Source: Gemmatimonadota bacterium (lineage in GTDB: Bacteria; Latescibacterota; UBA2968; UBA8231). From it: DNA of 27,449 nucleotides. The stretch spans positions 7,034 to 34,482 of the forward strand of contig PATE01000041.1 in NCBI GenBank assembly GCA_002712305.1, in the 5' to 3' direction. Each line of letters starts with the position of its first letter. Within the stretch, counting starts at the first letter, position 1. Both the position numbers and the translations under genes were made by a program. The notes below the pieces were generated by a model. That model saw only the letters and a program-made list of their open reading frames with translations. It did no database searches and was not told where the DNA came from. This document shows, in pieces, positions 3,041-10,633 of the stretch.

Positions 3041-3071
3041 TTGACACATTCTGGCCCTGCCTCCTTATATT
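3041..3071 (+). promoter_or_regulatory. Putative sigma-70-type promoter of the mamK-like gene
   Basis: A perfect -35 box TTGACA (3041-3046) is followed after 19 bases by TATATT (3066-3071, five of six matches to TATAAT). The spacer is longer than the ideal 17. The predicted transcript would have a leader of about 130 bases, which contains a pyrimidine-rich tract at roughly 3108-3127. No other strong promoter is visible in the 196-base gap 3013-3208. Confidence 0.45.
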
Positions 3072-3208
3072 TGACTGCAAAATAGAGCTTTAGGTCGAAT
3101 CGTCGGTGTCTTCCTCCCCCTCCCCCCGGCTGCGACCCTCTTCCAACAATTGGAGCTTCGCCACGATGGCGCGACTCCATCCCCATCGACAGAACGGAGT
3201 ATTGATCT

Positions 3209-4285
3209 ATGGCTGCTGAAGGTCCGGGGGCAAGCGCCTCCCAGGACGGCGACATTCTCTACGTCGGCTTAGATCTCGGCACGTCACAAAGCTCGATCGA
3301 GACGAGCACCGACATCCGCCGCACCGTGACCAGCGTCGTCGGTTGGCCAAAGGATCTCATCTCCTACAAGTTCCTGCAGAAGCAGGTTGTGATCGGCGAT
3401 GAGTGTCTTGAGAATCGTATGGCCGTCGACATGATCTGGCCCATGGAACACGGCGTGTTCCGCGCACGCCCCGAGGATAAGCCCAAAGGGGAAGATGATC
3501 GAGAGGCCGAGGCGATCCAGCACCTCGTCTCGTACGTCATCGAACTGGCCGAGGCGAATCCGAACAGTGACATCCGTGCCGTCATCGGTTGTCCTGCTCG
3601 AGCTTCGGCTGAGGATCGAGAAGCCCTGGTCGAGTCAGTAAGCGGCCTGGTCACGCACGCGATGGTGGCGTCGGAGCCATTCCTGGTCGCCTATGGCCTG
3701 GATCTGTTCAACAATGCCCTCATCATCGACATCGGTGCAGGCACACTTGATCTGTGCCGCATGCACGGAACCATTCCCGGTGAAGACGATCAGCGAACGC
3801 AGATCAAGGCCGGGAATTACGTCGATTCCCGTTTCCACATGCTGCTGCAGGAAAAGGTCCAGGACTCCCCCATCACACTCGAGATGGCCCGGAAGATCAA
3901 AGAGAAATACGCCTTTGTCTCTTCCAACAAAGAAATCATCGCCGCCGACTTCCAGGTGGATGGAAAACCCAAGACCTACGATGTGACCGACGAGTTGCGT
4001 GAAGCGTGTGAGAGTCTGTTGCCCGACATGATCACCAGCGTAAAAGAACTGATCGTCAGCTTTGATTCCGAGTTCCAGAATGAACTGCGTCAGAACATCG
4101 TTCTGGCCGGCGGTGGCAGTCAGATCCGCGGCCTGGCAGAAGAGTTTCGCTCGAACCTGACCGAGTTTGGTCCGTGTCGAGTCAGCGCCGTGGAAGATCC
4201 AGTCTATGCCGGGGCCCATGGCGCACTTCGCTTGGCCACCGACATGCCTGAGTCTGAATGGCGGCGCCACGCAATCCAGAAATGA
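3209..4285 (+). CDS. MamK-like bacterial actin
   Basis: This is a 358-aa actin/MreB-superfamily ATPase that resembles MamK, the filament that aligns magnetosomes in magnetotactic bacteria, more than MreB or ParM. Visible motifs are phosphate-1 GLDLGTSQSS (20-29), the MamK-like VVGWPKD (43-49), AVIGCPARASAEDREAL (124-140), SEPFLVAYGLDLFNNALI (155-172), phosphate-2 IDIGAGTLDL (173-182), KAGNYVDSRF (200-209), and the adenosine-site LAGGGSQIRGLAEE (299-312). Glu156 and Asp174 are 18 residues apart, the same spacing as the MamK catalytic pair I recall as E143/D161. There is no membrane segment, so it should be cytoplasmic. The start follows GGAG with good spacing. No other magnetosome gene is in the window, so a magnetosome role is not supported here. 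Likely partner: the coiled-coil gene downstream. Confidence 0.85.
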   Translation: MAAEGPGASASQDGDILYVGLDLGTSQSSIETSTDIRRTVTSVVGWPKDLISYKFLQKQVVIGDECLENRMAVDMIWPMEHGVFRARPEDKPKGEDDREAEAIQHLVSYVIELAEANPNSDIRAVIGCPARASAEDREALVESVSGLVTHAMVASEPFLVAYGLDLFNNALIIDIGAGTLDLCRMHGTIPGEDDQRTQIKAGNYVDSRFHMLLQEKVQDSPITLEMARKIKEKYAFVSSNKEIIAADFQVDGKPKTYDVTDELREACESLLPDMITSVKELIVSFDSEFQNELRQNIVLAGGGSQIRGLAEEFRSNLTEFGPCRVSAVEDPVYAGAHGALRLATDMPESEWRRHAIQK

Positions 4286-4365
4286 TGGCGTCCCCACGCC
4301 TGTCTTTCTTCCCCGATGATGCTCCCTTCGTCCTCCACCCCTTCGTGGCAGGATCCTGAGGAACT

Positions 4366-4902
4366 ATGGGTATTTTTGCATTCCTGACATCATCACGTCT
4401 CAAAGCAGAACTCACCCGCCAGCGGGATGAGATCGCGCGTATGCACCAGATGCTGGATATGGAAGTCAGTCAGCGGCAGGAAGCCGAACGGCAGACGGAA
4501 GAACAGACGCTTCAGATGCAGGAGATGGAGTCGAAGTCCTCTTCCCTGGCCGAAGAGCTACAACAGAAAGAAACGGCGCTGGAAGAGGAGCGGCAACGGC
4601 TGCAGAAGAAGCTGGAGGAGGAAGGACGACAACTCCAGGAGGAAGCGGAACGCAAGATCCGCGACACGGAGGTTCGCATCACGACGTTGCGTCAGGAACT
4701 GGTCGAAAAACAGCGTCAGCGAGCCGAGGTGACGGACCAGAACTCCAAACTGGCAGAGAAGTCAGCCCAATTGGAGCAGAGGTTGAGCGAGATGGCGACG
4801 GCTGTGGAGCAGGGCGAAGAACGCGTGCAGGCGTTGGAGGATGAAAAACAGGAATTGCAGAAGGACCTTGATAAGATCATGGGGAATCTGACGCGCTGGT
4901 AG
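4366..4902 (+). CDS. Coiled-coil protein, partner candidate of the MamK-like actin
   Basis: I do not recognise a named family. The 178-aa product is almost entirely a predicted coiled coil from about residue 12 to 173: long runs rich in Glu, Gln, Lys and Arg with regularly spaced Leu/Met/Ile (for example ELQQKETALEEERQRLQKKL), and no Pro or Cys. A short hydrophobic N-terminus (MGIFAFL) might act as an amphipathic or membrane-associated anchor. The start follows GAGGA at 4358-4362. It lies 80 bases after the actin gene, and a strong terminator follows, so the two form a closed transcription unit. Coiled-coil partners that tether or regulate filaments are common next to bacterial actins; that this protein does so is inference. 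Confidence 0.8.
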   Translation: MGIFAFLTSSRLKAELTRQRDEIARMHQMLDMEVSQRQEAERQTEEQTLQMQEMESKSSSLAEELQQKETALEEERQRLQKKLEEEGRQLQEEAERKIRDTEVRITTLRQELVEKQRQRAEVTDQNSKLAEKSAQLEQRLSEMATAVEQGEERVQALEDEKQELQKDLDKIMGNLTRW

Positions 4903-4958
4903 CTCAACCAACCGTCATTCCGACGCAGACGGATCGATTCATAGGTCTGCTTGCGCCC

Positions 4959-5001
4959 ACGGCCCCGACGTGACACACTGTGTGCCGCGGGGGCCGTTTT
5001 T
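4959..5001 (+). terminator. Rho-independent terminator after the actin/coiled-coil unit
   Basis: ACGGCCCC (4959-4966) pairs perfectly with GGGGCCGT (4990-4997), and the descending arm runs into a TTTTT tract (4997-5001). The loop itself contains a small CACA/TGTG inverted repeat that could extend the hairpin. It closes the transcription unit that begins at 3041. Confidence 0.8.
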
Positions 5002-5048
5002 CTTATGTAGTCGATCCCACAACGAATGACCCAAGACGACTCTGCCTC

Positions 5049-7153: not shown

Positions 7154-10100
7154 TCATCGAGCTGTGCTTCCGCCCGCTGTGCGTTCTACCTCCAGCGACC
7201 GCATCTGAACCGCGACCTGCTGGCGAACCTTGTTGGCGGCCTCGACCTTCACCTGCTCAAACCCGCGGATCTCCTCAGCCGCAGAGGCTAGCTCGACACA
7301 CGCGTCCAGATTCGTCGGATCAAGCACCGAAACGAGTCGACGGACCACGTCGAGATACCAGTCGACCAACTCTCTCTCGACTCGCCGGCACGCCATACGA
7401 CCGAAGGGGTCCAAGCGTCGGCCCCTGAGCCATCGCATCCGATACAACAGCGCCATTGGCCATCGGACCCACGCGCCGACGCGCATCTTGCCGATACCGA
7501 GCCAGCGCAACACGGGTGGGTGCAGAAAGCGTTCGATCCTGATCTTGCCGTCGAACTGATTCTTCATCTTCTGTTGCGCATCACCCCAGACCAGCAGGCG
7601 CGCGATCTCGTACTCGTCTTTGTAAGTCATCAACCGATGGAGCGACCGCCCCACGACGGCGGTCAGACCCTGGTGCTGATGATCGCTCTCGGCGGCTCTG
7701 ACCATCTTGAGAGTGTCCACGTATTTGCGCGCCCAGGAGACATCCTGGTAGCTCACGAGATGACGAATGCAGCGGCTCACGAGCTGTGCATCCTGCTCAT
7801 CGATGTTCAGGTCGGCTAGGGCCCTATCGTGAAGTTCCCGGGCTTCCCCCTGCTCCAGTGCCTGACGTTGTGCCTCTATCACATCGCCCGGCGTCGAGGT
7901 CAGTGGGCCGAGGGCCTCCTCCAACCGTTCTGGATCGGCCACGGCTAAGCGACCCCATCGGAAGGCCTGGATGTTGGCCTCGGTCTGTTTGCCATTCAGT
8001 TCGAGTCCAGCTTCGATCGCCTCGGCACTGATCGGCAATCCTCCGGACTGAAAGGTGGCCCCCAGCAGAATGACATTCGCAAACAGCGTATCACCAAACA
8101 GGCGTTCCGCCATCCAGTAGGTGTCTAGAAAGACGCCCTCTTCGCTTCGCGTACAGGCGTCGATGATGTCACGCAGTGCATCAGGTTCGGGAAAGGAAGC
8201 CTCAGGATGTCGGTTCTGCTCCGCCGTCGGAATCCGCGTGGTGCTGACGACGGCGACACTGCGTTCGACATCGGCATAACGAAGATTGCCCGGTTCGGCA
8301 GCACGGAACAGATCAAAACCCAGATACAGGTCGGCCGCGCCAGGTACCAGACGGTGGAAGACCGGCTGATGGGTCCGGCTGAACTGGATGGGTGCCTCCA
8401 CGGGCCCGCCCTTCTGCGCCAGTCCCGTGTTATTGGCCAGATACACGTGCAGACCGTCGAGCATCGCCGCATAGGCCAGTACATGGGAGATCGTCACAAC
8501 ACCCGTACCACCACGGCCCACAGAATACAGTGTGTAGATCTCGCGCTCCTGGAACCACGATCGGGAGCGGGGTGATGGAAGCGCTTCGTCGAGCAGCTCA
8601 GCAGGCAAATGCCGGCGAAGCGTCGTGCCTTTCGCAGGCACCACACGGGCGAATGACGGACACTCGCCGTCGACGCAGAGGCCATCCTGGTCGCAGGAGG
8701 ATTGGCGAATCTGCGTCTTGTCACCAAAGGGTGTCGGAACTCGATACAGGGCCGCACAGCCCTCGGATTGGCGGTAACAATCGCCACATCCCTCGCAGAT
8801 CTCCTCGTCGATGAACACGTGTTGGGAGGGTGTGATCCCATGCCGACGATTCCGTCGCCCCTTCTCGGTGGCGCATTCCTTGTCGAGGATGAGGGCCGTG
8901 GTCCCCGAAAGCTGCTTGAAGTCCGAAAGGGCCTGAGGGTGTTCGTCCAACGAGTAGTTGTGAACGTTTGAGGCACGTCCACGGTAGGGCGTCTCCCCCA
9001 CGACACCGACCCGTCCCACGCCCAGGGACAACAGTTCTTCCACGACCTCCGAGACACTCCGCTGCCCTCCGGGCTGCTGCCCTCCGGTCAGGGCCACCGC
9101 GCCATTGTAGAGGAGCAGGAAGGTGATGTTTACGCCTCCCTGTACGCAGCTCTGGATCGCCCCCCGTCCACTGTGGAAGTAGCTGCCATCCCCCAAATAC
9201 TGATAGATGTGGCGGTTGCCGTTGAATGGAGCCGTGCCCGAGTAGATCGAGCCCCCCGCTCCCATGGTGGGGATGTATCGAACGCCGTGATCGTAGGCAC
9301 CGATCGCTCGGATCGAACTACAGCCGATGGCGCCCCCGGGTTTCTCACCCTGCAGGTCGCGGAAGGTGTTGTAGGGACATCCTCCACACGACATGGGCGT
9401 TACACGCGGAACGGGTCCAAAACTTCTGTCTTCGATCTGGTCCAATCGCGCTAGCGCCGCCGAGGCATTCACCCCTGTCCTAAGCCGGGTCGCCAGACGC
9501 TGGGCCAGGATCTCCGGATCCACCTCGCCATAGGACGGGATCAGCGGAGCCCCCGATTCGTCCCGTTCGCCGTAGACGGCGCGTACACCGTCCACGCCGA
9601 GCAGCGCCGCCTTGACACCCTCTTCGATGAAGGGTCCCGGTTCCTCCACGACGTATATCGTCTCCAGCCCGTGATCCGTCGCGAAAGATCGGATCGCCTG
9701 TCGATCCAAGGGCCAACTGACGCGCAACTGCAACGTCGGCACACGGACGTCCAGCAGGGCCAGGGCCTGCTCCACATCGGTGAAGCTCTTCCCGCTGGTG
9801 ATGATTCCTGTCGGACCGCCCGTGTCCGACCAGTGCACGCGATTCAGATTGTTCCCCCGCACATACGCTTCCACCAGGGGCACCTTCGTCTCGACCAATT
9901 CCTGCTGCATCGGTAGTGCGCCCAGGGCCATGACGATCGGGTGAAAACGCTTGTTGTAGGGTTCAGGGAGCCGCGGCTGGACCTTCGTCGTCGTCAGGTC
10001 CAGGGTGCTGCCACCGTCGCAGACGGGCGTGACCAGTTTCATGGCCGTCACCACGCCGAGCCAGCGACTCAGGTGAATGGCATGCAACCCCAACTCGATG

Positions 10101-10618
10101 ATCTCACTGACAGAAGAGGGATAGAAGATGGGAACGAAACTGGAACGCAGCGCCCAGTCACTGGTGCCAGGCGAAACCGATGACTTCGATCGATGGTCCT
10201 CACCACACAGAAGAACCATCGATCCCCGCCTGCCCGTGCCGGCTAGGTTTGCGAGCCACGTTTCGTCAGGAATCCACTGCGTTCCGTGTGCCTTGCCATA
10301 CCAGAAGGCGTCCACGTCTCCGCTGTCCGCATACTGACTTCCCAGGATGGCGGAGGCCGCCGTTTTCTCGTTGATCCCGAACTCGTGTATCGTGCGGGCA
10401 CGCTCGTTCAGCATCTCAAGTTGCCCCACCACCTCCAGGTCGAATCCACCCAGTGGCGATCCTTCATACCCGGTGATGAAGGTCTGATTCACTGACTCCG
10501 CATGCGTTTGGTCGTATCGCTGCTTGTCGACGATCAGACGTACGAGGGCCTGCATTCCAGTGAGGAACACGGATCCGTCCTCACGGGCGTATCTGTCGGT
10601 CCAGGCGACCGATTCCAT
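7154..10618 (-). CDS. Indolepyruvate ferredoxin oxidoreductase, fused alpha/beta type
   Basis: This long (1154 aa) single-chain 2-oxoacid:ferredoxin oxidoreductase is of the fused IOR type. It oxidatively decarboxylates aryl- or branched-chain 2-oxoacids to acyl-CoA with TPP and Fe-S clusters. In order: an N-terminal pyruvate-oxidoreductase-like domain (TGYEGSPLGGFDLEV), a Cys segment SCGGCPYNTF near residue 410, a TPP-binding domain with GDGSYFHSG near 476, a ferredoxin-like Cys-rich stretch (CEGCGDCYRQSEGC, then CDQDGLCVDGEC) at about 609-655, and the gamma domain (GRGGTGVVTISHVLA, NNTGLAQKGGPVEAPIQFSR). Length and order match known fused enzymes of aerobic bacteria. The ATG at 10618 is preferred over a TTG one codon upstream; no ribosome binding site is evident. 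It is a stand-alone gene, facing a convergent neighbour downstream. Confidence 0.9.
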   Translation of the reverse strand: MESVAWTDRYAREDGSVFLTGMQALVRLIVDKQRYDQTHAESVNQTFITGYEGSPLGGFDLEVVGQLEMLNERARTIHEFGINEKTAASAILGSQYADSGDVDAFWYGKAHGTQWIPDETWLANLAGTGRRGSMVLLCGEDHRSKSSVSPGTSDWALRSSFVPIFYPSSVSEIIELGLHAIHLSRWLGVVTAMKLVTPVCDGGSTLDLTTTKVQPRLPEPYNKRFHPIVMALGALPMQQELVETKVPLVEAYVRGNNLNRVHWSDTGGPTGIITSGKSFTDVEQALALLDVRVPTLQLRVSWPLDRQAIRSFATDHGLETIYVVEEPGPFIEEGVKAALLGVDGVRAVYGERDESGAPLIPSYGEVDPEILAQRLATRLRTGVNASAALARLDQIEDRSFGPVPRVTPMSCGGCPYNTFRDLQGEKPGGAIGCSSIRAIGAYDHGVRYIPTMGAGGSIYSGTAPFNGNRHIYQYLGDGSYFHSGRGAIQSCVQGGVNITFLLLYNGAVALTGGQQPGGQRSVSEVVEELLSLGVGRVGVVGETPYRGRASNVHNYSLDEHPQALSDFKQLSGTTALILDKECATEKGRRNRRHGITPSQHVFIDEEICEGCGDCYRQSEGCAALYRVPTPFGDKTQIRQSSCDQDGLCVDGECPSFARVVPAKGTTLRRHLPAELLDEALPSPRSRSWFQEREIYTLYSVGRGGTGVVTISHVLAYAAMLDGLHVYLANNTGLAQKGGPVEAPIQFSRTHQPVFHRLVPGAADLYLGFDLFRAAEPGNLRYADVERSVAVVSTTRIPTAEQNRHPEASFPEPDALRDIIDACTRSEEGVFLDTYWMAERLFGDTLFANVILLGATFQSGGLPISAEAIEAGLELNGKQTEANIQAFRWGRLAVADPERLEEALGPLTSTPGDVIEAQRQALEQGEARELHDRALADLNIDEQDAQLVSRCIRHLVSYQDVSWARKYVDTLKMVRAAESDHQHQGLTAVVGRSLHRLMTYKDEYEIARLLVWGDAQQKMKNQFDGKIRIERFLHPPVLRWLGIGKMRVGAWVRWPMALLYRMRWLRGRRLDPFGRMACRRVERELVDWYLDVVRRLVSVLDPTNLDACVELASAAEEIRGFEQVKVEAANKVRQQVAVQMRSLEVERTAGGSTAR

Positions 10619-10633
10619 CAAGCGTACCAGCTC

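Follow-up and report, generated by a model that had tools for sequence, protein, structure and literature searches.

A two-gene unit of a MamK-like actin and a coiled-coil protein in a Latescibacterota genome without detected magnetosome genes

The actin gene, its coiled-coil neighbour and the flanking signals

We analysed a stretch of 27,449 nucleotides (the window; assembly GCA_002712305.1, contig PATE01000041.1, positions 7,034 to 34,482) from a bacterium labelled Gemmatimonadota and placed by GTDB in the Latescibacterota; the close relatives of this genome (G000) are mostly labelled Candidatus Latescibacterota, and some are labelled Gemmatimonadetes. An actin gene and a coiled-coil gene were found side by side between a likely promoter and a likely terminator (Table 1). 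The genes flanking the pair encode an ABC transporter and a sugar oxidoreductase and gave no hint of a cargo.

Table 1. Positions of the features within the window
Feature	Position	Strand	Remarks
Likely promoter	3041-3071	+	TTGACA 3041-3046, TATATT 3066-3071, 19-bp spacer
MamK-family actin gene	3209-4285	+	358-aa ORF; catalytic pair E156/D174
Coiled-coil partner gene	4366-4902	+	178 aa; downstream of actin; conserved ends
Likely intrinsic terminator	4959-5004	+	G+C-rich bulged stem 4959-4997, then U-rich tail
Ferredoxin oxidoreductase fusion gene	7154-10621	-	1155 aa; POR domain, TPP-binding domain, DUF6537; ordinary

The MamK-style motifs quoted for the actin in a preliminary description of this DNA were all present in the ORF. 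The catalytic pair proposed there also proved correct, as E156 and D174 aligned exactly with E143 and D161 of MamK (5ljw), and both residues were invariant across an alignment of 11 actin sequences. The protein scored 413.5 bits (E 5.6e-124) against the NCBIfam MamK model, which is above the cut-off of 400, and fell below the cut-offs of the BeeR model (208 of 530 bits), the mreB model (37 of 365.75) and the plasmid-actin models ParM (14.8 of 417) and Alp7A (14.5 of 22). The top PDB sequence match was MamK 5ljw (3.3e-88), followed by BeeR (1.3e-39), and the actin was approximately 41-43% identical to MamK over the fold. The AlphaFold2 model, which was of moderate quality with a mean pLDDT of 70, matched MamK 5ljw with a Z-score of 30.0, MamK 5ljv with 29.5, BeeR with 28.7 and MreB with approximately 24. 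Since MamK and BeeR were nearly tied by fold, the assignment of the actin rests on sequence and on the tree described below. Mad28 proteins are marked by a Ser that replaces Asp in the phosphate-2 motif and by the lack of a Pro after the Glu in connecting region 1 (PMC10653835); the window actin has IDIGAGT and SEPF, and thus does not carry these marks. Residue A278 of MamK, whose replacement by Asp gave the non-polymerising mutant 5ljw, corresponds to Asn291 in the window actin and to Asp in the sister-family actins, so the filament contact at this position may differ. The actin is present as a single copy in G000 (4.77 Mb, 91% complete).

The downstream protein had been described as an almost pure coiled coil, and the AlphaFold2 prediction bore this out with a single continuous helix over residues 2-177 (mean pLDDT 93.6). 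At 0.15 nm for each of its 176 residues, one such helix would form a rod of approximately 26 nm. The protein contains no proline and showed a hydrophobic period of 3.54 residues, which was equally strong in 1 of 2000 shuffled sequences. A family alignment of seven sequences revealed conserved ends, MGIFAFLTxSRLK...TRQRDEIAR and IMGNLxxW. No Pfam or NCBIfam family matched the coiled coil above its cut-off; the Pfam Filament model reached 15.2 of 40 bits and Rod_CreS 13.3 of 100. No match was found in PHROGs or PADLOC, and a domain profile search revealed no DNA-binding domain.

Strong purifying selection acts on both genes. Between the window and genus mate G059, dN/dS was 0.033 for the actin gene and 0.040 for the coiled-coil gene, with synonymous sites near saturation in both.

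The consensus-like promoter of the preliminary description does contain TTGACA, but the best -10 element lies 19 bp away, and a standard scan with spacers of 16-18 bp misses the promoter. TTGACA was kept upstream of the actin gene in all seven genomes compared, which span three genera, and for this reason the promoter is probably real despite its spacer; the hexamer was also retained in G046, where both genes are deleted. The likely terminator has a bulged 8-bp G+C-rich stem and a U tail, with a folding energy of -24.9 kcal/mol and a z value of -2.0. In G059, the corresponding place holds a comparable hairpin whose T run is longer.

Tree placement of the actin and searches for magnetosome genes

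The actin tree was built with IQ-TREE from 57 actins, without the MamK of the magnetosome cluster of Latescibacteria (SAG AAA252-B13). The Latescibacterota actins formed one clade (100/98), with the actins of SM23_31, PL23a_bin.125 and CSMAG_2693 as its sister (96/99). Magnetosome MamK formed a separate clade (99/96, excluding a long-branched Nitrospinota row), the actins of Planctomycetota and those of KSB1/Calditrichota formed further clades, BeeR was a separate long branch and MreB was a separate outgroup. A forced joint clade of the Latescibacterota actins and magnetosome MamK was rejected (AU p 0.00015), and the window actin lies outside the magnetosome MamK clade. The plasmid search revealed no homologue; the tree, the family models and this search all placed the actin outside MreB, ParM and the plasmid actins. 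Two MamK copies close together were observed in each of L071 and L075, which are gammaproteobacterial and deltaproteobacterial metagenome-assembled genomes.

The earlier observation that no other magnetosome gene is visible held for the whole window, in which no mam gene was found. In G000, profile searches for MamQ and MamB gave no match, and the MamE profile gave only weak matches to DegP-type proteases, the best with 148 of 800 bits. With these three profiles, no mam genes were detected either close by or genome-wide.

Joint retention, decay and deletion of the two genes

The actin was present in 14 of 64 genomes of the phylum, and the pair or the actin was found in a patchy manner within the family (9 of 25 genomes); nearly all of the compared genomes are metagenome-assembled, and the family genomes are non-independent observations. 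A simple script supplied the gene calls for sequence outside the window. In all eight family genomes with a readable actin locus, the coiled-coil gene adjoined the actin gene. A profile search of the 64 genomes with the coiled coil found it in eight family genomes and elsewhere only as a remnant in G060, and no intact coiled coil without the actin was found among them. G060 contained decayed pieces of both genes side by side at the same locus, and both genes appeared frameshifted in G053. The actin of G063 stood alone at a contig end, with the neighbouring position beyond the contig. The flanks of G046 and G045 share 93.7-95.2% DNA identity, but G046 is without both genes owing to a single clean deletion, which starts just past the promoter and reaches the final codons of the coiled-coil gene. 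The flanking genes stay put in genomes without the pair. The actin and the coiled coil are retained together and are lost together, by decay or by deletion.

MamK-like actins also occurred in Planctomycetota, KSB1 and Calditrichota, where most stood next to different partners. Conservation of the coiled-coil neighbour held within one Latescibacterota family, but relatives elsewhere use other partners. In the sister families f2-f4, two genes preceded the actin, one for a short non-coiled protein and one for a protein that is of the TPR type in L027 and looks alike by position in the others. Where visible, a ParB-like protein followed; its ParB_N/HTH_ParB domains were tested in L027. Likewise, a short ParB_N/HTH_ParB protein was found next to the orthologous actins of L024-L027, L029 and L042 wherever it is visible on the contig. 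L042 had both a ParB-like gene and a small coiled coil near the actin, the latter with a weak match to ZapB (E 0.0008, below the cut-off). Coiled coils of 71-73 aa were found downstream of the actin in L046 and L047, and proteins of 156-265 aa, some with heptad character, upstream of the actin in Planctomycetota.

Tandem MamK-like actins were found in KSB1 and Calditrichota (L054:5755-12545, L056:5274-13955). One of the two actins has a long N-terminal extension that is coiled-coil-like at its start, and downstream of these actins lie DUF4388/roadblock proteins and an Arf/Ras-like small GTPase; this locus could possibly represent a polarity module. A MamK-like actin with 43% identity was also observed at L049:7917-9014, on a contig labelled Thermoplasmata archaeon whose neighbouring genes (RNA polymerase subunits, Kae1) look archaeal by eye. 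It grouped with the KSB1/Calditrichota actins in the tree, and a transfer into an archaeon is possible. Upon comparison with hhalign, no homology was found between the window coiled coil and the partners in other clades; two planctomycete partner types appeared related to each other, and no other pairs did. Viral contigs contained no relative, one 23% match was found in phages and PADLOC gave no match.

Comparison with known systems and possible roles of the pair

Four known systems come closest to the pair. The window actin shares with MamK of magnetotactic bacteria the family model and the catalytic Glu/Asp, but differs from it in its place outside the magnetosome clade, its own coiled-coil partner and a genome in which no magnetosome genes were detected. 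BeeR of Verrucomicrobiota (8r2n) is likewise a MamK-related actin of non-magnetotactic bacteria, described as of unknown function (PMC11929497), and it gave a close fold match; in contrast, the window actin fell below the BeeR cut-off and off its long branch, and the parts of that report available to us mention no coiled-coil partner for BeeR (PMC11929497). In Desulfovibrio magneticus RS-1, the coiled-coil proteins Mad20, Mad23, Mad25 and Mad26 work with MamK and Mad28, and two-hybrid tests showed their interactions (PMC12748827). This combination of actin and coiled-coil proteins is a functional analogy to the pair, although the Desulfovibrio genes belong to a magnetosome cluster with several coiled-coil proteins and Mad28 has a Ser where the window actin has D174. 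Magnetospirillum AMB-1 also carries a MamK-like gene away from its main magnetosome island; however, that strain is magnetotactic and the gene lies in an islet with other mam-like genes (PMC2818848).

MamK homologues in non-magnetotactic genomes have been published before, together with the hypothesis that they are relics or were transferred (PMC5955933), and greigite-type magnetosome clusters have been reported from Latescibacteria (PMC7602337, PMC5955933). Under that hypothesis, the window actin would be left over from a magnetosome cluster since lost, or would have come as a mamK from a magnetotactic donor. We consider this quite unlikely, since the actin groups with non-magnetosome relatives of several lineages, the joint clade with magnetosome MamK was rejected for the 57 actins of the tree and the profile searches of G000 gave no MamB, MamQ or specific MamE; the strong purifying selection and the dedicated partner do not fit a relic. 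The ParB_N and HTH_ParB protein that follows orthologous actins in f2-f4 and L042 raises another reading, namely a DNA-partitioning or chromosome-organising actin with nucleoid-linked filaments, in which the coiled coil would replace a DNA-binding adaptor. Such a role is rather unlikely here: a ParB-like gene is absent from the window locus, G000 has only a canonical 290-aa ParB, and neither the domain content of the coiled coil nor the plasmid search and the ParM and Alp models point to DNA partition.

A cytoskeleton for cell shape or division, in which the coiled coil would play a part like that of ZapB or crescentin, would be consistent with the small coiled coils beside related actins, including that of L042, and with the weak matches of the window coiled coil to the crescentin and intermediate-filament models. 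It is nevertheless unlikely, as MreB occurs almost throughout the phylum, the genus mate included, and the clean loss of the pair in close relatives argues against a core shape or division gene. The apparent absence of MreB from G000 itself is likely an assembly gap, given that the genus mate and nearly all other genomes have MreB.

We favour as the probable explanation that the pair is a self-contained cytoskeletal module, in which MamK-like filaments and a dedicated rod-like partner organise a non-magnetosome cargo or the cell interior. The preliminary description had suggested that the pair may be a distinct cytoskeletal system that positions another compartment or cargo, and the results support it; none of the three contrary outcomes named there (placement in a plasmid-segregation or MreB clade, a neighbour that is not conserved, mam genes close by) was observed, the last as judged with the three profiles. 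The joint retention and loss of the cassette, taken with the failure to detect magnetosome genes, suggests that the pair is probably a filament system organising something besides magnetosomes. We also counted the coiled-coil neighbours of other MamK-like actins and the KSB1/Calditrichota fusions in favour of an actin/coiled-coil module. Judged from its fold, family and catalytic residues, the actin would be an ATPase that polymerises into MamK-like filaments. The 178-aa protein would oligomerise as a coiled coil and work with this actin alone; its most likely role is that of a cross-linker or adaptor, with the conserved ends perhaps attaching to the filament, to a membrane or cargo, or to both. 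In a bacterium that would make no magnetosomes, the module may order a cargo or the interior of the cell, and we infer that it could position another compartment. Its patchy occurrence indicates that it serves no core function; it would be useful but dispensable.

Microcompartments, the compartment that would come to mind first in these cells, were considered as the cargo and rejected, because shell proteins were found in 25 of 25 family genomes regardless of the pair and went undetected in 15 of 22 genomes from other phyla that represent the non-magnetosome relatives. In G000, contigs C11, C86 and C101 contain 14 BMC shell-domain matches.

No description of the actin/coiled-coil pair was found in the open-access literature. 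The new findings are the conserved two-gene cassette, the deletion or decay of both genes together and the position of the actin in the tree, apart from magnetosome MamK. As a tentative view, there may be a wider group of bacterial positioning actins whose partners are exchangeable: the window coiled coil in one case, TPR and ParB-like proteins in another, and roadblock proteins with a small GTPase in a third. MamK would then be one branch of this group, and magnetosomes may have taken over their actin from this more ancient, general-purpose system. Whereas mamK in non-magnetotactic genomes has so far been ascribed to transfer or relics, here it belongs to a maintained two-gene module. In this lineage, where no magnetosome genes were detected, the actin comes with a specific partner that can be tested; the pair would reveal the function of a MamK-type actin in the absence of magnetosomes and the origin of the magnetosome cytoskeleton.
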